In this document: in pieces, positions 1,331 to 60,851 of the stretch
Layout: each line of letters opens with the position of its first letter
How positions within the stretch are numbered: the stretch's first letter is position 1
Assembly: GCA_964023275.1 (NCBI GenBank)
Contig: OZ029927.1
Location: 20,512,762 to 20,576,761, forward strand
DNA from: Norana najaformis
Taxonomy: Eukaryota; Annelida; Clitellata; Crassiclitellata; Hormogastridae
Length of the DNA stretch: 64,000 nucleotides
Reading direction: 5' to 3'
Translations under genes and position numbers: made by a program
Notes under the pieces: generated by a model
What the model was told of the DNA's origin: nothing
Databases searched by the model: none
What the model saw: only the letters and a program-made list of their open reading frames with translations

Positions 1331-3462
1331 ACGAAAAATCGGATACATCGACATCAGCAGCTGCCTCCCTTTCTGTTCAATCAACTACCACAACCCGTCG
1401 TTTATCGTCGTCATCATCTACTATGATTAATACTACTACAACCCCTACAACTACCAAGACTACTAAAACCTTTACAACTACCAAGACTGCTGTAACTCCT
1501 ATAACTGACAAGACTGCTTCAACCACTTTTACGACTTGCACATCACCAATAAATTCGTCTGAGGTTCAAAGAACTGGTATTGCGCAGGAGGCGTTATCCT
1601 CAAAAGGTATTGGATGAATATCAAAATTGCTACGCTTTTCTCGTCAGTTTTCTTATTATTTATGAACAGGGGAACTAATTCCCAATACCGAAAATTGTGG
1701 CATTATGATTATCAATATTATCGACAGCAGAGCCGCAGTATTGCTGGTCTCAGAAAAACTACAGTTCCACACACAACAGGATCACACTTCGGAAATGCTT
1801 CTATCGAGTCGTGTGAACAAGTGTTTCCGGTGCTTTTTGCCATTCTTCGTCGAGCTCTGCAAGTGGTCGGCCAAATCTATTTATGCCGTTGTTGCATTGC
1901 TTTTGTTAAGTTTATTCGTCGGTCAAATGATTCTCTATTCATTTGATTCGACTCCAAGGTGAATTAAAATAACAATTAACACTTTTCTGTAACAATAACA
2001 ATTAACACTTTTTAGTAACAAATTTCTTACTCTGCATTACTCTCCCTCACTGCTTAGAAGCAACCATCTCTGTGCATTATGATATCGGAACTATAAGAGT
2101 TTCCTGATTAGATTAGAATAGATTATCAGTCGTATTTGATCTGGAAAAGAGAAGATACTTAAGGACCTATAAAAATGCCATCACATTATGTCATTGTAAT
2201 GTATATTATTTTATTACATTGTAATGCATGGCACTGCATTGTATTGTTATATATTGTACTGTAGAACATCACAGCATGCCATATTAACACACCCGTTACA
2301 TTAAGCTACACGCGCTCTGCACTAGGCAACATGTGGTCGGCTACGTTGCCTTATAATTTCTGCTGCACTGCTCTGCACTGGTATAACAACGGACGTGTTT
2401 CAATTGTTTTTGTAGGACTGTTCGTCTCGTTCCCCATAAAAGAATTTCTCATCATCGTTTTGTTATTCTTTGCCGTTGTTTTCATTATCGTGGCCATAAC
2501 AGTTGTCCTGCGAAAGCGCAAATGGTAAGTAGTTACAATCGCTGGAATGCGTTTTTACGTATTCTTGTCTAGTATTCAAACAGTTAAAGAATTCAAAACA
2601 GTGATCCATGTTTCAGTATTTGCCGGGGCCAAAATCTTACATACTGAATTCTTAGTCCTTCGTGTTCCACTTTTCCACATCGACAACGTAGGTTCTCCGC
2701 TGTTCTATTGTAACTAATGTTAAGTTTTTCACCTGGATGGTTTGCAAACCACCCGCAGAATTCGCTTCCTTTATCAAATCTAAAAATATTCAGAAGCTCA
2801 CCTTTGAGGCCAGTAACTTGATTGAGAATGCGACCTATACAATAGATTCGTGTAGCAGGTAAATTTGTTTTGCTGTAGTTTTTGCCAATCTGATATATGC
2901 TATAAATTGTTACTGAACAGTCATTGAACGAGTGAAAAACCACTAAAAAAGTAGAGAATTATACTATTTACGTTTCTACAAATCTACAAATTGCCATTTC
3001 GCTAATTTGTCAAATCACATGCAGCGAAAGCGAATATCTAAACCCAAAACTAGTAGTAAAGCGATTCGAGTTGTATGTTGCACGAACCACATCATTAACC
3101 GCGGCTGAAGTGCAGTTGCTTTTCCCATGTAGGTCCACGTTAATGGGCCCAAAGTGGAAAAATTGTATTCTTTTCTCAGGAACTGCTGCCACTGTACTAT
3201 TCATGATTTATGTAGCGCTAGACGTAATGAAGAATCATACTTGAAGAAGACTAAGCAACAAAGTGAATCGCCCTCATCTGTTTACGAAACCCTGGTTCCT
3301 CACAATGGAGCGTCAGATGGTACTGTTCCGCCCGATAACACTATCTACGCCGAGTTGGAACTGAATCAATGGCCAACGCCTTCCAACAATGCCATCTACG
3401 CCAACGTTCAGCCCATAGGCGAGCCGGAGAAATGGGCAAAAACGTTGTCTACGCCGATCTAG
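1331..3462 (+). CDS. Gene A (3' part): lectin-like receptor stalk, TM and ITIM tail
   Basis: Three exons of the tandem receptor family are present: stalk 1331-1606, transmembrane 2416-2524 and cytoplasmic tail 3216-3462. The stalk is Thr/Ser-rich (repeats of TTTK/TTTP type) and ends ...LSSK. The TM exon encodes IKEFLIIVLLFFAVVFIIVA followed by RKRK, a stop-transfer signal giving type I topology. Splice sites are AG/GT, with phase 1 into the TM exon and phase 2 into the tail. The tail carries SVYETL (canonical ITIM), TIYAEL and AIYANV, then stops at 'STPI' like genes B and E. Signal-peptide and CTLD exons are not in the window; a LINE fills the DNA just upstream, so they are either further 5' or lost. 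Receptor function is inferred from architecture. Confidence 0.75.
1739..1958 (+). other. Possible alternative transmembrane exon of gene A
   Basis: This block lies between the stalk and TM exons and is conserved in all copies. Read from an AG at 1737-1738 to a GTGAAT donor after 1958, it enters in phase 1 and leaves in phase 2, exactly like the regular TM exon. It is open for about 73 codons and includes a hydrophobic stretch SIYAVVALLLLSLFVGQMIL. It could replace the normal TM exon. The polypyrimidine tract before the acceptor is poor, so use is unproven. Confidence 0.35.
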
Positions 3463-3888
3463 ACTTTCTGCAGAAAGTCCAGCAAAAGCCAAAGAATGTT
3501 GGCAAAGTAGCCGTCTGTCTCAATCCTATTTATTCCATGCCCTGCGAGCCACCCACTTGCGACATCAACACAGTGTATGCCGAACTCTTCAAAATCAGGT
3601 TAACCAACTATAACAACTGGACCTGTTTTCATCAAGAATGCAGTTGCTGATCAACAAGATATATACTCCTTGGCTTCACAAATCCCATTACACGATCCCA
3701 CTGTAGTTTATTCAGCATCTAATAAGCCAAGAAAAGCATCTACACAAACGAGCAAAGAAGTTCAGGATGCGGATCATAACAATCTAGAGGCGAATAAAGT
3801 GAAACATCCAACAACAACTAGAGGTACTAGTCCGCATGATAAAAATGGAATTTATGCAGAGCCATGCAAACTGAAAAAGTCACCTTAA
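3463..3888 (+). pseudogene. Frameshifted remainder of the gene A cytoplasmic tail
   Basis: Beyond the stop at 3462, other frames still encode the rest of the long tail seen intact in gene C. First comes ...GKNVVYADLDF...IYSMPCEPP...NTVYAELF (about 3430-3600), then after a +1 shift ASQIPLHDPTVVYSASNKPRK...GIYAEPCKLKKSP ending at 3888. The first shift is a net one-base loss relative to gene C just before GGCAAAAAC; a second lies near 3595. The tyrosine motifs are preserved but not translatable in one frame. Confidence 0.7.
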
Positions 3889-6273: not shown

Positions 6274-7612
6274 TAATAATAATAACAGTAATAATAATAA
6301 GAAGAAGACAATTTACATAGCGCCGTAGCACGACCGAGGTCGAAAAAATGGCGCTGTACATTCACCAATGCATTCACCCGTCGAAAGATAGACTTTAAAG
6401 GAAAGTTTTTAGCCGTGTTTTAAATGTGTCCAGTGAAGGGGACGACTTGACATGCTCGTGAAGACTGTTCCACGCCGCCGGTCAGGGCAACCGCGAAGGA
6501 GTGTTCTCCGAATTTTGTTGCGGTTCTGCGGACGGTTCACAGACGATCGTAGTTGGTAAACCCGCCGCATATCCGCTCATCGAGTGTAGAAATTAGTTAC
6601 AGTTACAGTTACAGTTAATAGGCTAAGTAAGCTATATTGGCTTTTAGTGCCTATATCGATCCATTCAACACTCAAGCTCGATCGACTGTATCATCGGCTG
6701 TAACAACTGAGTGGAGTCCGGAGCATCGCCATTTAAGGCCTTGTATGTCATCAGACACTGCTTGCAAGTGATCCGCTGCGGGACACGCAACCAGTGAAGA
6801 TTGTCCCGCAGCAGAGCGGTGACATGGTCGGATGGTATCTTGTCGCGAAAGGAGACGGACAGCAGAGTGTAACACAGATTGAATTCGTGCAAGTTGGCAG
6901 GATGGCAGACCCGCCAGCAGGTTGTTGCAGTAGTCGATTCGGGAGACTATGAAGTTGTTGACTAGTTTAATTGCTGCCGAGGTTGGAATTAACCTGAATA
7001 TGGATTTTATTTGGCGCAGTTGATAGAAGCAGCCCTTAACGAGTTGACTGATCTGGGTCGTCATTGCCACGCGGCTGTCCAGATAGAAACCAAGGTTACG
7101 AATAGTGTGGCTCACGTCTCCATCCGGGAGAGCAAAGCAACCTCCGTCGATAAGAAGGTGACGCCGCGGAGTAGTGCACCACAGAAATTCTGACTTCGAC
7201 GGGTTAATTCTGAGACGGTTTGAGGACATCCAGTGGGAGATCCGTTCTATACACAGCAGCACTCGCTGCTTAAGATCGGTTGCCTGTGATGGGTCGCAGA
7301 AAAAGTACAGCTGTGTATCGTCCGCGTAGCAATGATGAAGAGGACCATGTGCGCGTACGATCTCCTCCACGTTAGCTGTATATAAGACGAAGAGAAGCGA
7401 ACCAAGCACAGTTCCCTACGGGACACCACCGGTAACCAATCGCGGCGATGTCTCTTCCTCAACAAGTTGAACCGACTGTGTTCGCCCCCGGAGCTATGAC
7501 TCTAGTCATGTAAGGGCCTGAGCCTTAACTCCGAACGAACAAGCTAGTCGCCTGATTAGAATGTCATAGTCTACAGTGTTGAATGCAATCGACATGTCCC
7601 GCAATGACAGAA
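6274..7612 (-). mobile_element. LINE insertion(s) in the gene A 3' flank
   Basis: The minus strand encodes RT pieces: a 'FNTVDYDILIRRL' region near 7590, then SLLFVLYTANVEEIVRAHG, HHCYADDTQLYFFCDPSQ (the RT YADD active site), SHWMSSNRLRINPSKSEFLW and a C-terminal region to about 6670. A TAACTG repeat near 6597-6620 looks like one LINE 3' end. A second 'GGCGCTATGTAAATT' 3' end with a TTA-rich tail lies at 6274-6360, so two nested LINEs are likely. B, D and E lack this insert: there the sequence left of 6274 joins directly to that right of 7612. It is 5'-truncated and dead. Confidence 0.75.
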
Positions 7613-7822
7613 GATACAAAGGACAAGTGGCAAGTCCTCTCACTCGCCGTCAGATCTTCCCATCGAGAGTGTGCACGATTAGTGTTTTCATATTCTAGCT
7701 GAGTTGGCTAGGGGGCACAAGTGGAACGAAATGCCGAAACAAATTTCTTTCTGGCGGGGATTTGAACCTGCGAGCTTACGATTAACAGCCCAGGACGCTA
7801 ACCACTAGACTATCGCGCACCA
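7613..7822 (-). repeat. tRNA-derived SINE, gene A flank
   Basis: On the minus strand the element begins with a tRNA-like head with A-box TAGTCTAGTGG, an anticodon-stem region GGGCTGTTAAT resembling tRNA-Asn(GTT), and B-box GGTTCAAATCC, followed by an unrelated body. Copies sit at the same place in the B, D and E flanks, so insertion predates the duplications. Confidence 0.6.
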
Positions 7823-9474: not shown

Positions 9475-9624
9475 TTGATAATAATTTTAGTATTAATAAT
9501 AACAGTAATAATAATTAAAAACTACTTAATAGTAGTAATAATAATATGTATCATGTATGCCTCGGTTAAAGAAAAAGTAATAGTAGTAGTACTAGTAGTA
9601 GTAGTGGTAATGGTAGTAGTAGTA

Positions 9625-9672
<48 letters not shown>
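9475..9672. repeat. (TAA)n / (TAG)n trinucleotide microsatellite
   Basis: Runs of TAA, TAG and TGG-type triplets. Shorter versions occur at the same place in the other 5' flanks (about 11395, 25835, 53390). Confidence 0.85.
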
Positions 9673-9673
<1 letters not shown>

Positions 9674-12440: not shown

Positions 12441-12465
12441 AATTGACGCTTACCAGATAGCCGTG

Positions 12466-12760: not shown

Positions 12761-15700
12761 ATGGAGCAACTGTTGTTGCGGTTGCTACTTGTTGCCTTTC
12801 TTGCGGGTAAATGAATACGTTTCTCTGAAGTTCTTATTTGTAAAAAAAAATAATAAAAATCAATACTTATACTCTGCAAGTATTGAACTTCGCCATATAA
12901 TGTAGGCCTTCAGTAATGGTACATGTGGTATTTGAAGCCGCCGTCACTAAAAAACAGAAGATGTGTAAGTATTATAGATGGTTCATTCTGCCATTGGGCT
13001 GAAACACACCATTATCGTTTATATCCCTCCAAGCCTAGCACTGATATAACGAGGCTTACAGCAACTGAGTCATTTATGCGCATAGACTTCACATTGTGTG
13101 TGTGACTTTCAATCAAAGAAAGAAAATTTTATTCACGCCGAAAAAGTTAAATTTGATTGAAAATGCCAGTTTTTCATTCGACTTATTATCTAGGTCTTTT
13201 AGGGCTGAGTTTTGGAAATAGGGAAGTGCACAAAGAAGAGACCTAACGGTACGATAATTTGTGATTTAAATGTTAAATGATAATAGTTTTTGTTCTTGCA
13301 GGGTCATGGCTGTCATTGGATGAGGTGCAGTCGCAGAACATACCTAAAGGAACATATAACATATCTTTATGTTACAACAAAAGCTCTGGAAAGACTTGCT
13401 TAACAACATTTTTTGACAACAATTGTCACCCAGTGCGTAAGAATTTCACAGCTGCCAAGGACTGGTGTGAAACCAATGTTCCCAACTCCTCTTTAATCGT
13501 CATCAATAGCATAGAAGACCAACGAACTGTCGAGAGCTTTATCGGAAGACAAGCATTGGTGAATGAGACAATCCTTACGGACGCACGAAAGCTCTCGGCA
13601 AGACAGTGGTCATGGGCAAATGGCCACCAAAACATACCAAATGGTAATAATAGGGAATTTTTTTAGCTGAGCACATCGCTTACTTCATGTGGATTGCCAC
13701 AATTTGGCGTCATTAAAATTTACTTCTTGAATGCATTTATCCCGACGTGTGAGTATTTACTTATTTCTTTTTGAAAATACTGAGTATCTTTAGTTCCACT
13801 TGGCGGTCGATTTTGCAAAAATGTTGTGAAAATAAAACTTTGTTTAAATTCTCTCCATTCCTAATTTCACAGTTTAAATAGGCGATATGAACCACCGATG
13901 TCAAAAACTGCTTCTTCAATTATTGTCGGTCGGTCAACATACTTTGCTAACAGTCACTTAGTGTCTTTCAGGGTTCAACAAAGGACAAGCACTGAATCAT
14001 GATGCAGCTTGCGTGTTATTTGAGCCTGGACAACGAGCGGTGTACTATGTTGGTGACTTTGATCTCGTGCGCCATTATATTTGCGAATATTCAGGTAAAT
14101 GAATTTGAAGCCAAATATAACTTATTGTTTATCTTATTGTATGTATCACAACTGGTAGTCGCAGATATAAGCTAATATTATTAGTAGTAACTAACACTAA
14201 CTGCCCTATATGATTATGTTATAAATAAAATAGAAAAATCTATTTATATCGCGCGAGTATATTATAAATTCACAAGAAAAGCTTCGTTTGCAAATAGAGA
14301 AAAGAATAAGTGAAGAGTGCACACACATCATTAGGCGTAAGTCACTAGGTTACGTGCATGTGAAAGTAACTTCCGTTGAATCTTTCAATTATCTTAAAAT
14401 TGCTCAAACGTGTGTTGCAAAGTCTACGTACGATGCTTGTAAGATGAGCTATTATGCATTTCGGATGCGTACTCGTGATTTAAAGTCATGGGCCAAGTTA
14501 GGTTAAAGTGTGACAATGTGTTAGCCTGCACTTTGTTCCACCGAGTTTATGTTGCGTGCATATTCTGTGTAATCCTCGAAATCCATCCCTGCAAATGAAA
14601 GAATCAAAGCGAAAGATCTGCAAACGGAGGGCAGTTAATTTAATTGGATATTAATTTTCGTACAAGAACAGAGATTAGCTATAAGTTCTATTGTAGACTT
14701 GAAACGAAACTTCAGCTTCCAACAAAACAACAGGTATTACGCCTTAAGTCAAAGAACTGCCACTTGGTATGATGCCCGAAATGAATGCTTACGACTGGGA
14801 GGAGACTTGGCTTCTCATATAGATCTCCGAAGGATTAATGGAAGCTCATGGCTGAAAGATAGCAATTATTATTGGATAGGACTTTATCGAAATGAGTGGA
14901 TTTGGAGCAGCACTGGTAAGAAATATTTTCACTATCTATTGCTAGAGGATATATACGGTGGCGAGTAATAGACATACGTGGCTCTTATTTTGCTGTCTAA
15001 TGCATTTCTCTCTGCTTCAACAACTGGAATCTATTATCAGCCCTTATATCGGCTTAAGAAGGAAGTTGTAGACGTAGACCTACGCATTTCTAAACTTCCA
15101 ACTGTTAACACTTAGGCTAATATTCTGCCAAAATGTTTCCTCCTAACATTACATAATAATTTCAATGACAATCGAATAGAAAAATAATCAATTGTGAACA
15201 CACAGCCATACTTGTTGTGTTAACATTATGGTTTTCAGTAGAAAAACAAATCTCTACAATCACTCATAAGGTTGAGCCAGTGAGGTAATACAACTGTAAT
15301 CATATTATTTAATAATGCTTACCAAAATTCTCTCCATCTCACATTTAACGGCTTACAACTTCTAGCTTACTGTCAGTACCGCATGGAAGAGAAGACAACA
15401 AAATTGCGAACAGATTAAAACTATAAGCTCAGACAAAAACAAAACACATTATGAAAGAATAGATGATTGAAAACGATCTTCAAAGACCATTTTCTGATTG
15501 TTTTTGTTTAACTAGGCGCTGCAATCAATTATACAAATTGGGCAGATGGTTATCCCGATGATTCTGCCGACAAACAATGTATCTGCCTTAGCCGAAACTG
15601 CAGCAGAAGTAACAATGGACACGTGTTTGAAACACTGGATAAGAGCAAATGGTGGACTTGCAACTGCAGCATCAGTTACGCAATTGTCTGCCAAACAGGT

Positions 15701-18700
15701 TTGTTCTGCGGAATCACTGTATCTTACTGTTTACTTTTTCTGACTAAAACCAGTATTGGGTCTTCGGTGTGGTTCATGGAGTTCCAGTTTATCAAAGTTT
15801 CGCCCAGAGCCAAATTTCATGTGTCAAAAAGTATGTATGTAGAGAAACAATATAAAGTCTGTGTGTGCATCTATAGCGCGTCTGTAAGAATATATGTGTG
15901 TGTATGCACGCATATATGTATGTAAGTACGTATGTATGTATATACGCATGCATGCATGTATATTTGCATGTATGTATCTATGTATGTATGTACGTATGCA
16001 TGTATGTATGTATGTTTGTTTGTATGTATGTACGACTTGCGCGTTTGTATGTATGCATGTATGCATGCATCTACGTGAGTGTGTATATATACGCGCATGT
16101 AAGTAAGTATCTGCTTATTTGTATATCATTGTTTAAGAGCTTTACAAGTCGCCAAATTACTTAAGATATTAGGTCATCTGATGCGTTCATAGATGCCTTT
16201 TGATAAATATATCGAAACCTTCCCACCTCCAGCTGTATGTGTAAGTGTAATAGTCTGGAAATTTATGGTAGGACTATTTACGCTAGAGCAGTAGCAGACA
16301 GATACTGTGTTGTGTTGAAAAAACTTTCATTGTCACATGCCGCAAGTGAGTTTTGTCTAATTACTTTAAAAGTCCGTAATATTGTCTGGCTATAGGCTGC
16401 AACAACTGTGCTTTGCTACCACACAGTTGGTATCGAAGAACGATTCAGTTGCATTAGTATGTAGTATTTTCATGCATTAATTTTAACAGTGAAAGCGTGG
16501 TCTTTAAGTAAGACTGAATGAACTTTAGGCTGGAGCTCAAACACAACAACCGCAGTCATGTGACTGTAGTCTGAGTGAATTGTTTCTTTCACGATCAGCC
16601 GTTCAGCGCTCGTGTAAGATAATATAATTATTATATCACCATAAGTTTTCTCGTGGCAAAACTCGACCGACAGGTCTGCTATGAATAGTTTCATGGGCAT
16701 TTATCATTTCAATAATCCCATAAACCTTCCATGGATGGTTGCACTTTAACTGTTTCTTGCAGAAGAAAAATCGGATACATCGACTTTAGCAGTTGTCTCG
16801 CTTTCTGTTCATTCAACTACCACATCCTGTCGTTTATCGTCGCCATCATCTAATGTGACTAGTACTACTACAACCCGTACAACTACCAAGACTATCATAA
16901 CCCGTACAACTACCAAGACTTCTACAACTCCTACAACTTCAAAGACAACAATAAGCTCTATAATTGACAAGATTGCTTCAGCCACTTTTATGACTAGCAA
17001 ATCACCATTAAATTCGTCTGAGGTCCAAACAACTGTTATTGCGCAGGAATCGTCATCCTCAAAAGGTATTGGATGATTATCGAAATTGCCTACGCTTTTC
17101 TCGTCGCCTTTTTTATTATTTATAAACGGGGCTTCTAATTCTCAATATCGAAGATCGTGGCAATAAGACAATAAATATTATCGAAAGCAGAGCCGCAGTA
17201 TTGCTGGTCCCCGATAAAACTACAGTTGCACATACAAGAGGACCACACTTCGATAATATTTCTAACGAGGCGTATAAAGAAGCGTATGCGGTGCAATTTG
17301 CAATTCTTCGTCGAGCTGTGCAAGTCGTTGGCGAAGGCTTTTTATGCCGTTGTTGGTTTGCTTTCGTTAACTTTATGTGTAGGTCAAATGATCCTCCATT
17401 CATTTGATTCCACTCGAAGGTGAATTAAAATAACAATGAACACTCATCTGCTCCAACATTCTTCCTCTGCTTTACCCTATAATTACAGCCTTATTTTGAC
17501 CGTTCAAATAATAAAAGAAAACTTTTCTCTTACAACATTCTTCCTTTTCATTACTGTCTATGACTTTACCATAACTGCAAGGTACTGTCCAATAAATTGA
17601 ATTTTCAATGTGATTTTGCTTAGAGCAACCATCGTTGCGCATTGCGATAACGGATCTATAAAAGTTTCCGGATTAAATCAGAATAGAACAACAGTCGTAT
17701 TTTATCTGGTAATGAGAAAATACTTAAGGATCTATATAAATGCCAGCATAGTATGTTATTGTACGGTATATTATTTTATTACAGTGTAATGCATGGCGTT
17801 GCATTGTATTGTTCTATATAGCACTTTTGAACATCACATCATTCCATATTAACACACATTACATTAAGCTACACCTGCTGTGCTCTAAAGAACATGTGGT
17901 CGGCTACGTTGCATTATACTTTCTGTTGGAATGCTATGCGCTGCATTACAAAGGATGTGTTTCAATATTTTTCTAGGACTGTTCGACTTGTTCACCATAA
18001 AAGAAATTTTCATCATCGTTTTGTTATTCGTCGCAGTTGTTTTCATTGTCGTAGCTGTACTACTGGTCCTCCGAAAGCGCAAATGGTAAGTAGTTACAAT
18101 CGCTGAAATTCGTATTTTGCGTTACTTTTTCTAAGATTTAAACGGTTATTGAATTCAAAACAGTGGTCCTTGTTCAGTGTTTGCCGGGAACAAATATTAC
18201 TCACTTAATTTTTTGTCCTTCCTGTGCTGTTCTGAACATCGGCGACGCAGATTTTCCGCTGTGCTGTTCTTACTGTAGTAAAGCTTTTTTGCTTGCGTAG
18301 ATTTCAATCCAAACACAGAATTCGCCTCCTTTAACCTCGTTAGGTATAGGCTGAAGCTCTCCGTTGAAGCCTGTAACTTGATTCAGCATGCATCTTGTAA
18401 CGCAAATTAGCCTAGAAGCTAAAATTCTCTTGTTGCAATTTTTTACCAATCGGATAAATGCTCTAAATTCTTACTTATCAGTCATTGTTTAAACGTTGAA
18501 CGAGGGAAAAGACCACTGAAAGAATTAGAGTTTTATGTTTCTACAAATCAACGAAATTCCCTATTAGCTAACTTATCGAATCACATGCAGCGAAGGCGAA
18601 TGTCTACACACAAAACTAGTAATATAACGAGTTGTATGATTATGAACCACATCATTAACCGTAACTAGAATAAACTCGCTTCCCCCAGTGAGGATCCATG

Positions 18701-19026
18701 TTCTTTGGGCCACGGTGGAAAGAAATATTTATGCCCTTCTCACGACCTGCTGCCACTCTGCAATTCATATTTTATGTAGTGGTAGAGAGAATGAAGAATC
18801 GTCCTTGAAGAAGACTAATCAACAAACTGATCCGGCCTCATCTGTTTACGAAACCCTGGTTCCTCACAATGGACCGTCAGATGGTACTGTTCCGCCCGAT
18901 AACACTATTTACGCCAAGTTGGAAATGACTCCATGGTCCACGCCTTCCAACAATACCATCTACGCCAACGTTCAGCCCACAGGCGAGCCGGTGAACTGGG
19001 CAAAAGCGTCGTCTACGCCGATCTAG
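12761..19026 (+). CDS. Gene B: two-CTLD, mucin-stalk, single-pass receptor with ITIM tail (short form)
   Basis: Exons: 12761-12806, 13302-13643, 13972-14094, 14697-14915, 15516-15698, 16763-17065, 17977-18085, 18780-19026. Total 1572 nt, 523 aa. The start is MEQLLLRLLLVAFLAG, a clear signal peptide. CTLD1 (16-170) has DWC and YICEY at the C1/C4 positions. CTLD2 (171-304) has ATWYDARNEC, WIGL, W-W and a TCNC...IVC end; the Ca-site EPN/QPD position reads YPDD and no WND is present, so classical sugar binding is doubtful. The Thr/Ser stalk spans 305-405. The TM (about 413-436) is followed by RKRK. The tail has SVYETL (ITIM), TIYAKL and TIYANV (ITSM-like), then stops at STPI. CTLD1 has five N-glycosylation sequons. 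It is probably a surface inhibitory-type receptor; the ligand is unknown. CTLD2 carries Phe where C, D and E have Cys ('GHVFET'). Confidence 0.85.
14095..14696. other. Intron 3 of gene B
   Basis: It is strongly conserved with E (56035-56640) and C (28510-29113). A small open frame at 14288-14506 recurs in the copies, but it lacks domain features and flanking splice sites, so I treat it as intronic. Confidence 0.6.
15895..16105. repeat. (TGTA/TGCA)n microsatellite in intron 5 of gene B
   Basis: Degenerate TGTA, CATG and CGTA tetranucleotide repeats just after the CTLD2 exons. The same repeat lies at the same place in C, D and E. Reading frames across it (CMYVCMYV and HTYIHTYI types) are repeat artefacts. 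Confidence 0.9.
17191..17419 (+). other. Possible alternative transmembrane exon of gene B
   Basis: From an AG at 17189-17190 to a GTGAAT donor after 17419, the block is open for 75 codons, phase 1 in and phase 2 out, matching the regular TM exon. It encodes basic residues (TRRIKKRMR), then a hydrophobic AFYAVVGLLSLTLCVGQMIL. The acceptor is weak. In a second frame (acceptor 17198) it reads to a TGA at 17405-17407 and would give a tail-less protein. Confidence 0.35.
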
Positions 19027-22057: not shown

Positions 22058-25113
<3,056 letters not shown>

Positions 25114-42300: not shown

Positions 42301-45300
42301 ATTACAGCGTGTTCAGAAGAGAAGAAAAACAGTCCTTTAAGTTAATCCCAGGAGGCAGCTCTGGGTATGAAATGCTAGCGGCTTTATTTTCTAGCTTCGG
42401 CGCGGATGAGTGGCAATAAGCTAATATTGCGCCTCGCCGCCTGATCAACCCACTCACAGTGTGCGTCCAGTGTGCTTCCAGTGTATTCATTTAATGGCTT
42501 AATAGAACATAAGTCTCGATATACCTTTCTGGCTTGGTGGCGATTTGAACAGCCGACCTCAAATAAGGCATTGTTAAAAGATTTTCGGACTATCATCTTA
42601 GCTAACAGTAATCTAGTGTCTTTCAGGTGTCACAACGCCACGAAAACTGTCACAAAACTGTTGCTAACCGTCATTTTTGTCTTTCAGGGGTCAAACAGAG
42701 AATCACACGGTTTCACAATGGTGCTTGTGTGGAAATCAAGACTGGAAGATCACTGGGATACTGTGTAGATAAGGCCACGTCGCTGTTCCGTTACATATGC
42801 GAATATTCAGGTAACTGATATTGAAATTCAAATATTTTGTAAGCTTATTGTATGTATTATAATATGTAGTAACTGCTATGAGTTGTTGCTAATAGTATTA
42901 TTATTACTACTACCATCATCACCACCACCACTACTAATACTAGTAATTATAAGAATAATTATTCTAATAGTAATTATTATTTATTATTGTTATAAAAGCA
43001 TCTTCATCATCATTTTTTGTATTATTTTAGGACAATGTTATCTTGCACCAATAATGAGTCGTCTCAAAACCTCGGGCACCCGGAATGATCCAACCGTTAA
43101 TGATTGTTTGCGAAATGAGAAAAGAAAAAAACGTGCAGAATGCACACATATCATTAGGCCTAAGTCACTAATTGTAGGTCTACATGAAAGTTACTGCGAA
43201 TAAACGAATCAAAGCCTAAACTATTTAGGGCAGCTAGATGGACGTCACTTAATTTAATTGGATATGAACGTTCGTCCTTGAACTGAGATTAGCTATATGT
43301 TCTATTGTAGACTCAAAAAGAATCTTCAGATACCAACAAAATAACAGATATTACTTCGCAAATGACAGTACTGCCACTTGGTATGATGCACGAAATGAAT
43401 GCTTACGATTAGGAGGAGACTTGGCTTCTCTTAAGGATCTCGAGAGGATTAATGGAAGCTCATGGCTGAGACAAAATCAAAGATACTGGGTAGGATTTCA
43501 TCGAAATCGATGGATTTGGAACAGAACCGGTAAGCATATTTGATGGTTCCATACTCTAGAACTAGCTGATGCACGGTGGGACGTAGGCTATTGGATGTAA
43601 TTATAATTCTGCCCCTTTGGATTACATATGGCTAAATGATATTCTTGTTAGAATTTAACTTTAACGTTTTATCGTCGTAATCCATTTTTTATCGTACATC
43701 AGTTCTGATTACAGTCTCTTGTCTCTATTTACCAGCCAGAGCAGTTGGTCTCTATTCTCGGCCAGTTAGGAGAGAGGTTCAGTGGAAATAGGCCTATACG
43801 CCTTCCTAAATTGGCGAACCGTTCGCAGGATAATATTTTGCCTTATTGTTTCTTCTTATATTGCATCATTATTTCTTTGACAAGTCTAATAGAAAAACAT
43901 TCCAGCATAAACAACCATATATGTTGTGTTAGCGTTGTGTGTTTCAGTAGAACAACGGATCACAATATATGAAATCACTAAGTACAGTGTAAGTAAGTAA
44001 GTGAGTAAGTAAGTATATTCTCTATTAACCAATAGCTAATCGCACATCGATTTACAAGTATTTAAGAACACAAGAAAACTTAATATGCATACAGTATCCT
44101 AATAATAAAACATTTACGCGTTAAATTATCAGCAGGAGGAATAGCAAGAAGTCGACAGTGTGGTGCACTATAGCAATCAGATAATTTAATAATTCATACC
44201 TGCAATTTAGTCATCATAATGTTTACAGGTTCCAACCTTGTAATTTATCTTCAGACCTGAAAGAAAAGCCTACAAAATTACGAGCAAGTTAAGCCTACAG
44301 ACTCAATTTAAACAAAACAAAGAATATGTGTGTCATGGAATTTTAGTTGATGTTGCGTGGACATGGTCAGTTTAAGCGAAAGGAGAGGGGAGTGTTGACT
44401 CTCATCTGCCTCAAGAGATTGCTGGGCCTATGGTTGTTAATGGTAACTGATTTCCGTGGAAAAGCCTAAAAATGTTAAAAACGAGGCTTATTTAATGTCA
44501 ATACAATAAGAGTTTAATATTTCCTATGCAGAAAATTCAGAGAGTAGGCCTTGATTATGATAAATTGCTCTAGTGTCGTTTCTGTGAAATGTCAGTTTAA
44601 GAAACTGTGCACAGATGATTTCTAAAGCGACGATTTGAAAAAGGAGAACTTAATATAGAAAGAAAAGCAAGAATAAATGGAATAAGTCAGGCTTCTAAAA
44701 CAATTTAAGTACCGGCCACAGAATAGTTGAAAATAAATGTAGTGAGTTCAACTCCCATCCTTTAATGATTTTGTGTTATTAGGCGCTGAAGTCACTTATA
44801 CCAACTGGGAAAGGGGTCATCCTGATGACAATGATGACAAACAATGCATCTGCATTGGCCCGAAATGCAGCATAGAAAACCGTAGAGTCAAATGTAAAAC
44901 AGAAAATGACCGCAAATGGCGGACGTGCAACTGCAACAGAAGTTATGCCATTGTCTGCCAAGCAGGTGTTCATTACGGATTCAGCTTTCTATATACATTT
45001 GTGATTATATCCTACTATTTAAATTTCCAGATACAGCCTGTTGTCTGATTACGGAATGGTTGGGATTTCTAGTTGTCATACTTTCGCTCTTACCCAGATT
45101 TTAAATAATAAAATACTTGTATATATGTATATATATATATGTGTGTGTATGTATTTATGTATTTATGTATTCATGTATGTATATGTGTTTGCATGCATGT
45201 ATGTATGTATTATCTGGCTAATTAAATAGCCCAGTTAAAAATAGTGGGTCGGTTGATAAGCGATAATGCCATAGAAGCATCTTAACGAGTTACGTTTAGC

Positions 45301-46138
45301 TTTAGAGTTTAAATTTCTGAAGGCGAAGTAACATGTGATTTGATATGATACTGTATTGAAAGTGATCGTCAAACTCTCTTAAAAGTAATACCTGCCAGCC
45401 AATTCTGTTGGGCCCACATTGGATCCATCGCTTTCCATCATTTTCTATCAGTGGCACAATGCAAGCCTCCTATGGACCCAAGGTGTGTGACTGTCTAGGA
45501 ATATGTATGATCAGAACAAACACTAGTGTCGCTAGAACGCTCGCATACATGAACTGTTTGGTGTCAGAGCACGTTCACTATCACGTGAGGCAAGGCAGTT
45601 TTGTGTAATAACACTTGAACAGGCCACAATAATGTAGGGTTGTAGGCTACAGTGATTATGCTGTAACACCAGACAGATGGTTTCTAAGAACTTTCAAGCT
45701 ATATTCGTGTCTGTTCTTTCCAGACATTAATTTTGAGTGAAGCTGTGTTCTTTCAGTGACAAAAATGATCTTTCGACTGAAGCGCAAACACGACAACCAC
45801 AATCATGTGCATGTAGTCTTAAGGCTACAAATTGTTCACTTTACGCTGAGCCGCCCATTGCTGCTGTAAAATAATATCGCCTTACCTTTCCAAATGAAAA
45901 TAGGGCGACCTGTTGGGCTGCTATGATGTCGTAATCAATGTGCGCTTCATGATAATTTGCCCTAATTGAAAAATCAAGTAAATTACCCAGCTGATTATCA
46001 CGTTTGTACTATTTTGAAGAAGAAAAGTCTTATGCAGTTACAGAAAGAATCGTTGATCATGAAAAGAAGTCGCCGACAGCAGGTTTCATACACTCGGCCT
46101 CCCCCTCTGTCCATGCAATGACCTCGTCCCGCCATTTG

Positions 46139-46171
<33 letters not shown>

Positions 46172-48309
46172 CCATCATCATCATCACCAACAACATCACC
46201 TACTATTAAAACTACTATTAACTATACCACTCCGACCACCACTTCCACTTCCTCTACTACCACCACCGCTAGCACTACTACTATAACTCCCACTACTACA
46301 ACCACCACCATGACTACAACCATCACAACTGACAAGACGACTTCGATCACTTTTACGACTCCTAAATCACCAATAAATTCGTCTGAGGTTCAAACAACTG
46401 GTTTCGCCCAGGAGGCGTCATCTTCAAAAGGTATCTGGACGGATTTTAAAATTACTTACGATTTTATCGTCGCTTTTGTTATTACTTATAAACTGGAAAA
46501 AATTATTTCCAATATCTAAGATCGTGGCAATAAGTTTCTACATATCATTGAAAGCAAAGCCGCAGTATTGCTGGTCTCCGATAAAACTACAATTCCACAT
46601 AAAACAGGATCACACTTCGGAAATGTTCCTATCTATGCAAGTTAACAAGTGTACCCTGTGCAATTAGCAATTTTTCGTCGATCTGTGCAAATCATTGGCC
46701 AAGGCTATTTATGCCATTGTTGAATTGTTTTTGTAAAGTTTGTGCATAGCTCAAATGATCCTCCATCCATTTGAATCGGCTCCAAGATAAATCGACAGAA
46801 CAATAAACACTTCTGTTGGATAATTCTTCATTTGCATTGCTGTCCATTGCGAGTTTGCAATGTGCTTTTGCTTAGAAGCAACCAACGGTTGATGCTTTGG
46901 GATTTTGATAACGACGCTATAGAAGTTTCCAGATTAGCTTAGAATAGATTAGCAGTCATATTTTATGTGGTAACGAGAGAATGCTTAAGAAAATATAAAT
47001 AAATACTAATCCATTATGCCATTCAGCGTTGAGTTTTGCCCGCATTATATTTCTTTTCAAGATCACGTTACAATCAATCGTTAAGCCTATGGTTTGTAAG
47101 TGCATTATACTTACTGGTGCTATGAATTGAATTACAAAGGACGTGTTTCAATTGTTTTTGTAGGACTATTCGACTCGTTCACCATAAAAGAAATTCTGCT
47201 TATCGTTTCGTTATTCGTCGCGGTTGTTTTCATTGTCGTTGCCGTAACAGTGGTCCTTCGAAAGCGCAAATAGTGAGTAGTTACAATCGCTGAAATTCGT
47301 ATTTTGTGTATATTTTTCTAGAATTTAAACAGTTATTGAATTCTAAAGTTTTCCCTGTTTCACTATTTGCCGGAGCGAAATCTTACTTATTTAATACTTT
47401 ATTCTTCCTGTGCAGTTCTGAACATCGGCAACGCAGACTCTCCGCTGTTCTGTTATTACTGTTGCAAGTTTTTTACATGGGGGGATTGCCACCCCACCGC
47501 AGAATCCGCCTCTCTTTTCCTGGCTTGGGACAGGCTGAAGCCGTTGAAGCCAGCAACGTGATTCAGAATATGTCAGCAGTGATTTACCAATCTCATAGGT
47601 GCTCAAAATTGTAAATGTACAGTCATTAATCATTGGACGAGGGAAAAGAACAGAAGCAGTTTCTAGAAATTAACACAATTGGCCCTTCGCTGAATTTCGG
47701 GTCATAATGAAGCAAAAACGAATGTGTAAACACAAAACTAGCAGGATAACAATTCGAGTTGCATGATATACGAACAGAATTAATTGCCGTAACTGTAGAA
47801 AACTTTAATCTTTCCCCAATGTGAGTCTACTTTCAATGTACCAACAGCGGAAAGAAATTTATGACTTTCTCACGATCTGATGCCGCTCTACTATTTATGG
47901 TTTACGTAGCGCTAGACAAAATGAAGAATCACACTTGAAGAAGACTAGTCAACAAAGTGAACCGGTTTCATCTGCTTACGAAACCCTGGTTCCACACAAT
48001 GGAACCTCAGATTGTACTCTTCCCCCTGATAACACTATCTACGCGGAGTTGGAAATGACCCAACGGCCAACGCCTTCCAACAATGCCATCTACGCTAGCA
48101 TGCAACCAACGGTCGGAGCGGTTGACATGGGCAAAAACGTCGTCTACGTCGATCTAGACTTTCCGCAAAAAGTCCGGGAAAAGTCAAAGAGCTCTGACAA
48201 AATAGCCGCCTGTCTCAATTCCATTTATTACACGCCCTACGAGCCACCCACTTCAGACAGCAAACATCAACACAGTGTGTGCCGTACCCTCCATTGCAAT
48301 CCGGTTTAA
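39354..48309 (+). CDS. Gene D: divergent two-CTLD receptor with intermediate ITIM tail
   Basis: Exons: 39354-39396, 41232-41594, 42688-42810, 43311-43529, 44783-44965, 46020-46430, 47164-47272, 47910-48309. Total 1851 nt, 616 aa. The signal peptide MIQLLWLICVTLLAG is 14 codons plus the junction Gly. CTLD1 (15-176) is diverged from B/C/E, with a seven-residue longer first exon. CTLD2 (177-310) has ATWYDARNEC, WVGF, HPDD and TCNC...IVC. The stalk (311-447) starts with a poly-Ser run encoded by a TCA microsatellite. The TM is followed by RKRK. The tail has SAYETL (ITIM), TIYAEL, AIYASM, VVYVDL (ITIM) and IYYTPYEP before a frameshift caused by about 7 extra bases near 48260 leads to a stop. Introns 1 and 2 carry LINEs. 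It is the oldest-looking copy. Confidence 0.83.
39757..41010 (-). mobile_element. Decayed LINE in intron 1 of gene D
   Basis: On the minus strand RT-like pieces occur in changing frames: 'TFDTVDHSILL' near 40965, 'SITVHELGVTFDQELT' near 40450, and the C-terminal RRFIHSAAQGAMVVPPTRTS with HRSFDIIGPSFWNKL near 39950-40050. The 3' end has TTACAA repeats at 39757-39780. Confidence 0.75.
41727..42440 (-). mobile_element. Decayed LINE in intron 2 of gene D, interrupted by a second LINE
   Basis: A minus-strand 3' LINE end starts near 41727 and the same element resumes after about 41966 (the 'CCAAAACGATGGGCC' region, like 39950). Between them (about 41860-41966) lies a plus-strand LINE 3' end with 'GGCGCTTTATGAA' and a TTACA tail, like that at 870-962. 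This is a nested insertion. Confidence 0.6.
45115..45215. repeat. (TGTA)n microsatellite in intron 5 of gene D
   Basis: Short TATG/TGTA repeats in the same intron as in the other copies. Confidence 0.85.
46136..46190 (+). repeat. (TCA)n coding microsatellite in the gene D stalk exon
   Basis: TCA repeats encode a run of about 16 Ser with one Pro at the start of the mucin stalk. Unique to D. Confidence 0.85.
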
Positions 48310-50563: not shown

Positions 50564-50568
50564 TCGAC

Positions 50569-51259: not shown

Positions 51260-51264
51260 TCGAC

Positions 51265-52283: not shown

Positions 52284-52338
52284 AAGAGGAAGATCTTTCC
52301 ATATATATATTTGTATATATGGAAAGATCTTCCTCTTT
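52284..52338. repeat. Perfect palindrome at the unit D/E boundary
   Basis: The left arm AGAGGAAGATCTTTCC plus a TA run is mirrored by its complement GGAAAGATCTTCCTCT, about 23-bp arms with a short TA/TTTG centre. A third partial copy follows at 52352-52375. Confidence 0.85.
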
Positions 52339-54705: not shown

Positions 54706-57700
54706 ATGGAGCAATTGTTGTTGCGGTTGCTACTTGTTGCTTTTCTTGCGGGTAAATGAATACATTTCTTTGAAGTTCTTATTTGTAAAAACATTTTAGT
54801 AAATCAGTACTTATACTATGCAAGTTTTGAACTTCTACTTAGGATGTAGGCCTACAGTAATACTACATGTGGCATTTAAAACCACCGTCAGTAGTAAACA
54901 AAAGATCTGCAAGTATTATGGATGGATCATTCTGCCATTCAACTGAAACATACCATATGGTTTATATCCCTCTATGCCTAACACTGATATAAAGACGGTT
55001 ACAGCGACTGAGATATTTATGCGCATAGACTTTACATTGTGTGTATGATTTTCATTCCAGGAAGAAAAATTGTATCCCCGCCGAAAAAAATAACTTTAAT
55101 GGAAAATAATAGTTTTGATTCGACTTATTATTTAGGTTTTCTCTGGCTGAGTTTTCAAAATAAGGAAGTGCGCAAAAAGAGGCTAACGGGTACGATAATT
55201 TGTGATTTATATGTTATGTGATAATATTTTTTGTTCATGCAGGGTCATGGCTGTCATTGGATGAGGTGCAGTCGCAGAACATGCCTAAAGGAACATATAA
55301 CATATCTTTATGTTACAACGAAAGCTCTGGAAAGACTTGCTTTACGACATTTTTTGACAACAATACTCGCCCAGTGCGTAAGAATTTTACAGCTGCCAAG
55401 GACTGGTGTAAAACCAATGTCCCCAACTCCTCTTTAATCATCATCAATAGCATAGAAGACCAACGAACTGTCGAGAGCTTTATCGGAAGACAATCATTGG
55501 TGAATGAGACAATCCTTACGGACGCACGAAGGCTCTCGGCAAGACAATGGTCATGGGCAAATGGCCACCAAAACATACCAAGAGGTAATAATAGGGAAGT
55601 TTTTTAGTTGAGCACATCGCTTACTTCATGTGGATTGCCAAAATTTGGCGTCATTATAATTTACTTCTTGAATGCATTTATCCTAACGTATGAGTATTGA
55701 CTTATTTCTTTTTGAAAATACTGAGTATCTTTAGTTCCAATTGGCGGTCGATTTTGCAAAATGTTGTGAAAATAAAACTTTGTTTAAATCCTCTCCATTC
55801 CTAATTTCACAGTTTAAATAGGCGATATGAACCACCGATGTCAAAAACTGCTTCTTAAATTATTGTCGGTCGGCCAACATACTTTGCTAATACTCGCTTA
55901 GTGTCTTTCAGGGTTCAACAGAGGACAAGTACAGAATCATGATGCAGCTGCCGTGTTATTTGAGGCTGGACCAAAACTGGTCTACGGTGTTGGTGACTTT
56001 GACCTCGTGCGCCATTATATTTGCGAATATTCAGGTAAATGAATTTGAAGCCAAACATAACTCATTGTTCATCTTATTGTATGCATCACAACTGGTAGTC
56101 GCAGATATAAGATAATATTATTAGTAGTAACTAACACTAACTGCCCTATATGATTATGTTATAAATAAAATTGAAAAATCTATTTATATCTCGCCAGTAT
56201 ATTATAAATTCACAAGAAAAGCTTCGTTTGCAAATAGAGAAAAGAATAAGTGAAGGGTGCACAAACATCATTAGGCGTAAGTCACTAGGTATACGTGCAT
56301 GTGAAAGTAACTTCCGTTGAATCTTTCAATTATCTTAAAATCGCTCAAAATTTTGTTGCAAAGTCAACGTACAATGTTTGTAAGATGAGCTATGATGCAT
56401 TTCGGATGCGTACTCGTGATTTGAAGTCATGGGCAAAGCTAGGTTAAAGTGTGCCAATGTGTTAGTCTGCACGTTATTCCGCCGAGTTTATGTTGCGTGC
56501 ACGTTCTGTGTAATCCTCGAAATTCATCCATGCAAATGAAAGAAACAAAGCGAAAGATCTTTAATCGCGCGGACGGCATTAATTTAATTGGATATTAATT
56601 TTCGTACAAGAACAGAGATAAGCTATAAGTTCTATTGTAGACTCGAAACGAAACTTCAGCTTCCAACAAAACAACAGGTATTACGTCTTAAGTCAAAGTA
56701 CTGCCACTTGGTATGATGCCCGAAATGAATGCTTACAATTGGGAGGAGACTTGGCTTCTCTTACGGATCTCGGAAGGATTAATGCAAGCTCATGGCTGAG
56801 AGATGGCAATTATAATTGGATAGGACTTTATCGAAATGAGTGGATTTGGAGCAGCAATGGTAAGATATATTCCCACAATCTATTGCTAGAGGATACATGG
56901 TGGCACGTAATAGACATACGTGTCCCTTAGTTTGCTGACTAATGCATATGTAAACATGCGATTGAATCGTCTCGATTATCAGTTTCTCTAATTTTTCTTC
57001 GTTCTAGCTTAAGTTTACCTCTTTCGTCTTTCTTTCACAGCTTCAACAACTGGAATCTATTATCAGCCCGTATATCGGCTTAAGAAGAAAGTTGTAGACG
57101 TAGACCTACGCATTTCTAAACTTCCAACTGATAACACATAGGCTAATATTCTGCCAAAATGTTTACTCCTAACATTACATAAAAATTTCATTGACAATCG
57201 AATAGGAAAATAATCAAGTGTGAAAATGCAACCGTACTTGTTGTGTTAGCGTTATGGTTTTCAATAGAACAACAAATCTGTGCAATCACTCATAAGGTGT
57301 AAGCCACTAGGGTAACATCACTGTATCATATAATTTAATAATGCGTACCAAAATTCTCTCCATCTTACAGTTAGCGGCTTACTACTTCTAGTTTACTGTC
57401 AGTACTGCATGGAACAGAAGACAACAAAATTGCGAACAGATTAAAACTATAAGCTCAGACAAAAACAAAAAATCTTTATGAAAGAATAGATGACTGAAAA
57501 CGATCTTCAAAAACCCTTTTCTGATTGTTTTTGTAAAATTAGGCGCTGCAGTCAATTATACAAATTGGGCATATGGCTATCCCGATGATCCTGCCGAAAA
57601 ACAATGCATCTGCCTTAGCCCAATGTGCAGCAGAAGTAGCAATGGACACATATGTAAAAGACATGATGACCGCGAATGGTGGACTTGCAACTGCAGCATC

Positions 57701-60700
57701 AGTTACGCAATTGTCTGCCAAACAGGTTTGTTCTACGGAATAACTGTATCTTACTATTTACTTTTTCTGACTAAAACCAGTATTGAGTCTTCGGTGTGGT
57801 TCATGGAGTTCCAGTTTATCAAAGTTTCGCCCAGACCCGAATTTGATGTGTCAAAATGTATGTATGTAGAGAAACATTATAAAGTCTGTGTGTGCATCCA
57901 TAGCGCGTCTGTAAGAATATATGTGTGTATGCACGCATATATGTATGTACGTACGTATGTATATACGCATGCATGCATGTATATTTGCATGTATGTATCT
58001 ATGTATGTATGTACGTATGCATGTATGTATGTGTGTTTGTATGTATGTACGACTTGCGCGTTTGTATATAAGCATGTATGCATGCATGTACGTGAGTGTG
58101 TATATATACGCACATGTAAGTAAGTATCTGGTTATTTGTATATCATTGTTTAAGAGCTTTACAAGTCGCCAAATTACTTAAGATATTAGGTCATCTGATG
58201 AGTTTATAAATGCCTTTCGATAAATAGATCGAAACCTTCCCAAGTCCAGCTGTATGTGTAAGTCTAATAGTCTGGAAAATTATGTTATGACTATTTATGC
58301 TAGAAGGGTAGCAGACAGAAACTGCGTGGTGTTGAAAAAGCTTTCATTGTCACATACCGCAAGAGAATTTTGTCTAATTACTTTAAAAGTCCGTAATATT
58401 GTCTGGCTATAGGTTGCAACAACTGTGCTTTGCTACCCCACAATTGGTATCGAAGAAAGTTTAAGTTGCATTAGTATGTAGTATTTTCATACATTAATTT
58501 TAACAGGGCATTTATCATGTCAATAATCCCGGTAAACCTTCCATGGATGGTAGCACTTTAACTGTTTCTTGCAGAAGAAAAATCGGATACATCGACTTCA
58601 GCAGCTGCCTCCTTTTCTCTTCAATCAGCTACCACTTCCCGTCGTTTATCGTCGTCATCATTTAAAGTGACTAGTACTACTACAACCCGTACAACTACCA
58701 AGACTATCACAACCCCTACAACTACCAAGACTACTACAACTCCTACAACTTCAAAGACAACAATAAGCCCTATAACTGACAAGACTGGTTCAGCCACTTC
58801 AACGACTAGCAAATCACCATTAAATTCGTCTGAGGTCCAAACAACTGTTATTGCGCAGGAAGCGTCATCCTCAAAAGGTATTGGATGATTATCGAAATTG
58901 CCTACGCTTTTCTCGTCGCCTTTTTTATTATTTATAAACAGGGCTTCTAATTCCCAATATCGAAGATCGTGGCAATAAGACAATAAATATTATCGAAAGC
59001 AGAGCCGTAGTATTGCTGGTCCCCGATAAAACTACAGTTCCACATACAAGAGGACCACACTTCGGAAATGTTTCTAACGAGGCGTATAAAGAAGCGTATG
59101 CGGTGAAATTTGAAATTCTTCGTCGAGCTGTGCAAGTCGTTGGCGAAGGCTTTTTATGCCGTTGTTGGTTTGCTTTCGTTAAGTTTATGTGTAGGTCAAA
59201 TGATCCTCCATTCATTTGATTCCACTCCAAGGTGAATTAAAATAACAATGAACACTCATCTGTTCCAACATTCTTCCTCTGCTTTACCCTATAATTACAG
59301 CCTTATTTTGACCGTTCAAATAATAAAAAAAAACTTTTCTCTTAAAACATTCTTCCTTTTCATTACTGTCTATCACTTTACCATAACTGCAAGGTTCTGT
59401 CCAATAAATTGAATTTTCAATGTGATTTTGCTTAGAAGCAACCATCGTTGCGCATTGCGATAACGGATCTATAAAAGTTTCCGGATTAAATCAGAATAGA
59501 ACAACAGTCGTATTTTATCTGGTAATGAGAAAATACTTAAGGATCCATATAAATGCCAGCATAGTATGTTATTGTACGGTATATTATTTTATTACAGTGT
59601 AATGCATGGCGTTGCATTGTATTGTTCTATATTGCACTTTTGAACATCACATCATTCCATATTAACACACACACACATTACATTAAGCTACACCTGCTCT
59701 GCTCTAAAGAACATATGGTCGGCTACGTTGCATTTCACTTTCTGCTGTAATGCTATGCGCTGCATTACAAAGGATGTGTTTCAATATTTTTCTAGGACTG
59801 TTCGACTTGTTCACCATAAAAGAAATTTTCATCATCGTTTTGTTATTCGTCGCAGTTGTTTTCATTGTCGTAGCTGTATTGCTGGTCCTCCGAAAGCGCA
59901 AATAGTAAGTAGTTACAATCGCTGAAATTCGTATTTTGCGTAAATTTTTCTAAGTTTTAAACGGTTATTGAATTCAAAACAGTGGTCCTTGTTCAGTATT
60001 TGCCGAGGACAAATATTACTCACCTAATTCTTAGTCCTTCCTCTGCTGTTCTGAACATCGGCGACGCAGATTTTCCGCTGTGCTGTTCTTACTGTAGTAA
60101 AGCTTTTTTGCCTGCGTAGATTTCAATCCAAACACAGAATTCGCCTCCTTTAACCTCGTTAGGTATAGGGTGAAGCTCTCCGTTGAAACCTGTAACTTGT
60201 TTCAGCATGCAGCTTGTAACGCAGATTAGCCCAGAAGCTAAAATTCTCTTGTTGCAATTTTTTACCAATCGGATAAATGCTCTAAATTCTTACTTATCAG
60301 TCATTGTTTAAACGTTGGAAGAGGGAAAATACCACTGAAAGAATTAGAGTTTTATGTTTCTACAAATCAACAAAATTCCCTATTTGCTAACTTATCGAAT
60401 CACATGCAGCGAAGGCGAATGTCTACACACAAAACTAGTAATATAACGAGTTGTATGATTATGAACCACATCATTAACCGTAACAAGAATATACTCGCTT
60501 CCCCCAGTGAGGGTCCACGTTCTTTGGGCCACAGTGGAAAGAAATATTTATGCCCTTCTCACGACCTGCTGCCACTCTGCAATTCATATTTTATGTAGTG
60601 CTAGAGAGAATGAAGAATCGTCCTTGAACTTGAAGAAGACTAATCAACAAACTGATCCGGCCTCATCTGTTTACGAAACCCTGGTTCCTCACAATGGACC

Positions 60701-60851
60701 GTCAGATGGTACTGTTCCGCCCGATAACACTATCTACGCCAAGTTGGAAATGACTCCATGGTCCACGCCTTCCAACAATACCATCTACGCCAACGTTCAG
60801 CCCCCAGGCGAGCCGGTGAACTGGGCAAAAGCGTCGTCTACGCCGATCTAG
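54706..60851 (+). CDS. Gene E: two-CTLD, mucin-stalk, single-pass receptor with ITIM tail (short form)
   Basis: Exons: 54706-54751, 55243-55584, 55912-56034, 56641-56859, 57543-57725, 58575-58877, 59796-59904, 60599-60851. Total 1578 nt, 525 aa. Layout as in B: signal peptide MEQLLLRLLLVAFLAG, CTLD1 16-170, CTLD2 171-304 (WIGL, YPDD, TCNC...IVC), stalk 305-405, TM with RKRK, tail 442-525 with SVYETL, TIYAKL and TIYANV. It is the closest paralogue of B, yet both second CTLD exons differ at many residues. CTLD1b reads AAAVLFEAG where B, C and D have a Cys (AC-V). CTLD2b reads GHICKRHDDREWW where B has GHVFETLDKSKWW. An inhibitory-type surface receptor is inferred from architecture. Confidence 0.85.
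57905..58118. repeat. (TGTA)n microsatellite in intron 5 of gene E
   Basis: Degenerate TGTA/CATG repeats, nearly the same as in gene B. Confidence 0.9.
59003..59225 (+). pseudogene. Broken alternative transmembrane exon of gene E
   Basis: Equivalent to 17191-17419. The TM frame now holds a TAG at the start (AGCCGTAG) and a TGA in the middle (GCGGTGAAATTTG). The other frame is still open to a stop at 59217-59219. Confidence 0.4.

Follow-up and report, generated by a model that had tools for sequence, protein, structure and literature searches.

The 64-kb window analysed here (the whole stretch of DNA, to which positions refer unless C15 is named) lies on C15, in an assembly of 17 contigs and 608 Mb, and self-comparison revealed within it a head-to-tail array of genes on the plus strand. 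An earlier note had proposed a tandem array of at least five lectin-like surface receptor genes whose tails bear immunoreceptor tyrosine-based inhibitory motifs (ITIMs), and five intact eight-exon genes, termed A to E, were indeed recovered using models built from splice sites and from comparison. Exon 1 encodes the start of a signal peptide, exons 2 and 3 a first C-type lectin-like domain (CTLD1), exons 4 and 5 a second (CTLD2), exon 6 a threonine-rich stalk, exon 7 a transmembrane (TM) segment with RKRK (ending LRKRK in B) and exon 8 a tyrosine-rich tail. From the signal peptide followed by the TM segment we infer a type I orientation.

All five genes lie on the plus strand. Gene B (12761-19026; 523 aa, short tail) comprises exons at 12761-12806, 13302-13643, 13972-14094, 14697-14915, 15516-15698, 16763-17065, 17977-18085 and 18780-19026, so that CTLD1 spans 13302-14094 and CTLD2 14697-15698. 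Gene C (27182-33845; 687 aa) comprises exons at 27182-27227, 27717-28058, 28387-28509, 29114-29332, 30015-30194, 31179-31562, 32406-32514 and 33185-33845, with CTLD1 at 27717-28509, CTLD2 at 29114-30194 and, in its last exon, a full-length tail that includes SAYGTV, LVYAEV, TIYASV, NVVYAEF, YSTPYELP, YAEPFKP and a terminal YAEPCK. Gene D (39354-48309; 616 aa, intermediate tail) has exons at 39354-39396, 41232-41594, 42688-42810, 43311-43529, 44783-44965, 46020-46430, 47164-47272 and 47910-48309, with CTLD1 at 41232-42810 and CTLD2 at 43311-44965. Gene E (54706-60851; 525 aa, short tail) has exons at 54706-54751, 55243-55584, 55912-56034, 56641-56859, 57543-57725, 58575-58877, 59796-59904 and 60599-60851, with CTLD1 at 55243-56034, CTLD2 at 56641-57725 and its stop codon at position 60851. 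As the earlier note had stated, B to E share domain order and intron phases (1,1,1,1,1,1,2; all 28 introns GT-AG), and their spliced lengths are divisible by three; none contains an internal stop. Gene A had been described as partial, which is true of the window, where only exons 6-8 are found (1331-3462; stalk 1331-1606, TM 2416-2524, tail 3216-3462). Addition of exons 1-5, located just upstream at C15:20508628-20511440, completes a gene of 515 aa free of internal stops. The exons of D are 55-86% identical to those of the other window genes, and the stalk exons of A, B, C and E contain 27-nt tandem repeats. In four of the genes, A, B, C and E, though not in D, read-through of the stalk-exon donor (1606, 17065, 31562 and 58877) would add an identical short terminus, SSKGIG*, a possible secreted isoform produced by intron retention.

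Protein searches covered 5.8 billion sequences, the best 7985 candidates by shared words being scored, and each of three (with C, with an alignment and with a type-2 protein of the second array described below; two of them scored the best 7985 and 7987 candidates) returned a single relative, P0001. This protein of 618 aa, from a contig of 2278 nt, is 46% identical across 95% of C. As it begins inside exon 2 and continues across the six remaining exon joins of seven, P0001 is taken to be, apparently, a spliced transcript of another species, and since it follows the frame of C through the whole long tail, that tail is probably ancestral. On the basis of P0001 (YICEYS/DWKSDK), the exon-4 acceptor TTGTAG/AC was adopted, with intron phases kept. 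An acceptor at AG/CTATA, 18 nt further upstream, was rejected, the six residues that it adds being absent from P0001 and the site itself being lost in L023; the Pfam scans, the protein searches with C and with the alignment, the PDB search with CTLD2 and the P0001 alignment used models that still held these six residues.

The array extends well beyond the window, which sits within a row of 20 type-1 tail exons (the type of A to E) at C15 20.43-20.68 Mb with a median spacing of 12.4 kb; 19 distinct exons came from a search of the genome with P0001 and that of E from the window model. The genome search scored 71 of 229 candidates, so that its match counts are lower bounds; it gave at least 77 matches, every one on C15 and on the plus strand, including at least 18 CTLD1 exons in the type-1 array and at least seven at 21.17-21.39 Mb. 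When these 25 CTLD1 exons were read, 23 had both splice sites, and 20 of those were open; stops interrupt exon 2 of L025, L041 and L046, the CTLD1 exon of L032 has no acceptor and that of L040 was not delimited.

The presence of two CTLDs, for which the earlier note had advised a hidden Markov model search, was borne out directly for CTLD2. This domain exceeded the Pfam Lectin_C cut-off in whole-protein scans of C (1.1e-11), D (3.2e-13) and E (1.2e-9), and in B it matched at 4e-8 when scanned alone, while not being listed in the whole-protein scan. Against the PDB, chains of the yolk-sac IgY receptor, the mannose-receptor family and PLA2R came first, and the IgE Fc receptor (CD23) and dectin-1 were also matched. 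CTLD1 of C and of D, scanned alone, gave no Lectin_C match. A CTLD1 profile matched PDB chains at a best E of 3.3e-4, with 33 of 34 matches at E<=1 being CTLD chains as judged by name, and three of eight CTLD1 family members matched Lectin_C at E<=1 (best 3.8e-4); CTLD1 would then be a highly divergent CTLD. When C, D and E and CTLD2 from B were scanned, Lectin_C alone exceeded its cut-off, and the Pfam scan of B to E listed no immunoglobulin (Ig), sushi, fibronectin type II (FNII) or ricin-type domain. In an alignment of CTLD2 from A to E, with motifs placed by eye, EPN/QPD and WND were absent, their places being taken by YPDD/HPDD and by WTCNC/WACNC/RTCNC. D, P0001 and L023 have the inner cysteine pair of CTLD1 (AC...YC), whereas B and C have lost half of it and A and E all of it; given this partial or complete loss in recent copies, the disulfide seems to be eroding.

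Tails were scored for ITIMs as [SIVL]xYxx[LVI] and for immunoreceptor tyrosine-based switch motifs (ITSMs) as TxYxx[VI], L020 and L024 being left out of the 20 type-1 tails because these two rows are C and D themselves. The tails proved to be of the ITIM/ITSM kind that had been suggested, although they are not uniform. An ITIM was present in 19 of 20, the exception being L052, and an exact ITSM in 14, in the window those of B, C and E but not of A and D. Six tails are full length (L013, L014, L018, L019, L021 and C), that of C holding 13 tyrosines, and full-length tails carry three to four YxxP sites (four in C, three in L013). Thirteen others are shortened and end just past the third motif or further on, and L052 stops at residue 8. 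An ending WAKxxSTPI is common to A, B, E, L050 and L051, where the distal tyrosines are gone and the first three motifs kept; by our own reading of the DNA, A, B and E have one base fewer here than C and D. Outside L052, the first tyrosine is retained in 17, the second in 18 and the third in all 19 tails. By eye the shortenings amount to perhaps ten independent events, which is suggestive, and only that, of selection having placed the stops after the ITIM/ITSM block. When ITIM plus ITSM counts were set against 2000 composition shuffles, 14 of the 20 tails, including B, C, D and E, gave p<0.05 (uncorrected).

A second array of about 15 tail exons, some of them weak, lies at 21.24-21.38 Mb and has the same architecture with a different TM segment and tail, here called type 2. 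None of six type-2 tails tested contained an ITIM or ITSM match. Instead, Yxx[LI]-x6-12-Yxx[LI] was found in four of the six, usually as YxxL-x10-YxxL, and the first two motif tyrosines stand 14 apart in all six; read by eye, L056 and L060 also show the type-2 tyrosine pair. The pair resembles the immunoreceptor tyrosine-based activation motif (ITAM) of FcgammaRIIA, which has a long spacer, and the type-2 members would probably be activating. L023 and L033 together form an intact eight-exon type-2 gene of 452 aa (a model in which 353 bases of intron 4 are not covered) that joins type-1-like CTLDs to a type-2 stalk, TM segment and tail, and L034, another type-2 gene with type-1-like CTLDs, retains a type-1-like stalk, whereas the type-2 genes L061 and L062 have a divergent CTLD pair of their own. 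Similar CTLD ectodomains thus occur on both tail types. A solitary TM/tail pair of type 2, which lies on the minus strand (G000:C15:20327084-20328006) and precedes the type-1 array by about 95 kb on its upstream side, is possibly a relic of the common origin of the two arrays.

The mosaic character of the family was also seen in a tree and in introns. In a tree of the 20 open CTLD1 exons, for which, as for the CTLD1 rates, L025, L041 and L046 (stops) and L032 and L040 (splice sites not found) were left out, the second-array exons L023 and L030 group with L028 of the first array (95/95); exons of both arrays intermingle, and the starred branches force at least three changes of array label. Within the window, C and E are 93-95% identical over introns 1-3, but their identity falls to 77-78% over introns 6-7 and to 69% in the 3' flank, whereas B and E are 96-97% identical over introns 6-7 and 83% over intron 1. 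These contrasting identities indicate that the recognition and signalling halves differ in history, with the switch at about introns 4-5. The halves also change at different rates, the ectodomain evolving faster than the tail: the nonsynonymous/synonymous ratio was 0.77 (0.59-1.01) for CTLD1 exon 2 of 15 type-1 exons and 0.47 (0.36-0.61) for the proximal part of 19 tails, L052 being left out, and this order was reversed in 0.4% of bootstrap draws. A claim of positive selection was dropped, the CTLD ratios being near 1 with wide intervals.

With reasonable, though not high, confidence we read the two arrays as a multigene family resembling paired receptors, in which some members would be inhibitory and others probably activating. 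The family would consist of earthworm type I membrane receptors encoded in tandem, in which the pair of CTLDs serves as a rapidly evolving recognition module, kept away from the membrane by a mucin-like stalk. As the canonical sugar-binding motifs are missing, the ligands are probably protein or otherwise Ca2+-independent. Ligand binding would lead Src-type kinases to phosphorylate the proximal tail tyrosines, which lie in an ITIM of the form SxYxx[VL], an ITSM (TxYxxV) and an ITIM of the form VxYxxL, and the phosphorylated motifs would recruit SH2 phosphatases, so that the cell is dampened; the YxxP sites of long-tail members may serve Crk-type adaptors. Matches to SH2-domain exons number 131 in the genome, a count that shows nothing specific. 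Both arrays together would then provide paired inhibitory and activating receptors, and exchange between duplicated copies would give a recognition module another output.

Several results weigh against this interpretation. ITIM plus ITSM counts did not rise above shuffles in six of the 20 tails (A 0.21, L018 0.08, L019 0.12, L021 0.13, L027 0.06 and L052 1.0), the motifs are short and the tails are paralogues rather than independent samples. Nor are the six-residue motif windows slower to change than the remainder of the proximal tail (ratio 0.61 versus 0.43). In the type-2 tails the classical ITAM spacer of 6-8 residues was found in none of six, and the first motif has no L/I in two of the six. 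As to exchange, the five rows of the tree that bear the second-array label do not cluster beyond the level of shuffles, of which 187 in 500 scored as low; this agrees with exchange, although weakly. The nonsynonymous/synonymous ratios assume an independence that gene conversion breaks, and for CTLD2 of A, B, C and E the ratio was 1.19 (0.73-2.50), a value above 1 not being proved. The profiles of CTLD1 and CTLD2 gave no significant alignment with each other (hhalign probability 0.3%), and an AlphaFold model of P0001 was set aside as too poor to use, its mean predicted local distance difference test score being 41.

The best-surviving alternative, which we nevertheless consider unlikely, is that these are endocytic or scavenger lectin receptors that clear soluble ligands or microbes in the manner of the mannose receptor, their tail motifs being YxxPhi sorting signals for clathrin adaptors. 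The best PDB matches of CTLD2 belong to just such proteins, a type I protein with more than one CTLD would suit the role, and YETL, YAEL and YANV also fit the YxxPhi consensus. However, YxxPhi needs neither the residue at -2 (S, T or V) nor the several spaced motifs per tail, both of which fit ITIM/ITSM; moreover the CTLD2 alignment lacks EPN/QPD/WND, the scans of B to E list no FNII or ricin-type domain, and there are two separate tail types. It is somewhat less likely again that both arrays encode activating or adaptor receptors, with none inhibitory, their tyrosines being docking sites for SH2 adaptors of the Crk/Nck/Grb2 type or for Syk-like kinases; the YxxP sites of the full-length tails and the ITAM-like pairs in four of six type-2 tails would agree with this, but in 13 of 20 tails the YxxP part is reduced or missing, although 19 retain the first three motif positions. 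That the array is mostly decaying duplicates of little function, with frames open merely through youth, is very improbable: the stops in exon 2 of L025, L041 and L046, the lost acceptor of L032, the undelimited L040, the L052 stop and the shortened tails would fit decay, but the five type-1 genes followed from end to end, A to E, are all open across eight exons despite the divergence of D, the upper bound of the proximal-tail ratio is 0.61 and P0001 retains the architecture.

Between the array units lie remnants of reverse transcriptase of the long interspersed nuclear element (LINE) type (22335-24784 and 6672-7415, both on the minus strand; PF00078 at 6.7e-24, 7.3e-6 and 6.9e-9), and 111 perfect copies of TA (24891-25112) adjoin one such remnant. 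Dense groups of Lectin_C exons are found elsewhere at C5 31.7-31.9 Mb, C10 0.38-0.94 Mb and C2 16.40-16.50 Mb; as the P0001 search lists no match in them, these groups are probably other CTLD families.

The host had been thought to be an invertebrate, and its erythrocruorin linker genes point to an annelid, most likely an earthworm. The genome gave 29 matches to the linker family (PF16915), the best being closest to linker L1 of PDB 2gtl (E 1.7e-56), an entry that we take to be from Lumbricus terrestris. Fifteen of the 29 matches lie at C5 34.4-36.9 Mb, mostly on one strand and with open frames of about 130-170 aa, forming a linker-like tandem group; few linker genes are known from earthworms, unlike this group. 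Nuclear copies of COX1 (L009-L012) are present at C15 0.41 and 0.57 Mb, with TGA at tryptophan positions, and a nuclear COX1 fragment on C15 looks annelid-like.

Among known systems, the CTLD receptors of the vertebrate natural killer (NK) complex (Ly49, NKR-P1, DCIR/DCAR) share with the earthworm family clustered genes and CTLDs that often lack the canonical Ca2+ site, and they have ITIM-bearing beside activating forms, as the earthworm arrays probably do. The NK receptors (group V) are type II proteins with a single CTLD, whereas the earthworm receptors have a hydrophobic start exon, two CTLDs, a threonine-rich stalk, a TM segment and a C-terminal tail; no homology was traced past the CTLD. 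Members of the mannose receptor family (MRC1, MRC2, PLA2R, LY75) are also type I, carry more than one CTLD and are among the best PDB matches of CTLD2, but have N-terminal ricin-type and FNII domains and 8-10 CTLDs, as against two CTLDs only, neither of those domains listed and a long multi-tyrosine tail. Receptors of the Siglec/PECAM/KIR type have a membrane-proximal ITIM and then an ITSM, an order shared with the type-1 tails; their ectodomains, by contrast, are Ig-like, and no homology is claimed. The Alr proteins of Hydractinia likewise have Ig-like ectodomains where the annelid receptors have CTLDs, and the FcoR of Botryllus, a chordate, have Ig and sushi domains and swap motifs by splicing, whereas the earthworm arrays exchange between duplicated genes. 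Both are described in PMC12065747 as invertebrate ITIM-type recognition families, Alr as candidate allorecognition genes with ITIM/ITAM-like tails and FcoR as clustered type I receptors whose tails carry an ITIM, a hemITAM or the core Yxx[ILV] and in which binding is linked to signalling in a plastic way. For NK receptor families, PMC1193534 reports that nonhomologous recombination has attached tails to different receptors.

The analogy with Alr and NK-lectin clusters drawn in the earlier note is supported, and extended by the tails of the second array and by the ectodomain/tail mosaic; an immune or self/non-self role is possible. Rejection of foreign grafts occurs in annelids, among them earthworms, and second-set responses are reported to be accelerated; foreign cells are also killed by earthworm coelomocytes (PMC2248247, in part). 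No receptor for these responses is named in the part of that source at hand. The available parts of PMC9505182 and PMC3533184 describe no such receptor family, and no annelid or protostome CTLD family with ITIM tails was found in the literature searched, partly by title and with most subscription journals outside its reach. We propose, tentatively, a protostome analogue of the NK complex, in which an inhibitory ITIM/ITSM array and a neighbouring activating array with wide-spacer ITAM-like tails would exchange recognition domains, letting inhibition and activation draw on common specificities, and which may underlie earthworm allograft rejection and coelomocyte killing, having converged on the lectin fold that vertebrate NK receptors use. 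The two arrays are thus candidates for the molecules by which earthworms recognise foreign cells, and they supply genes for testing. If the proposal is true, an inhibitory/activating logic in which recognition halves and tail halves are exchanged would also have arisen on the lectin fold outside the chordates.

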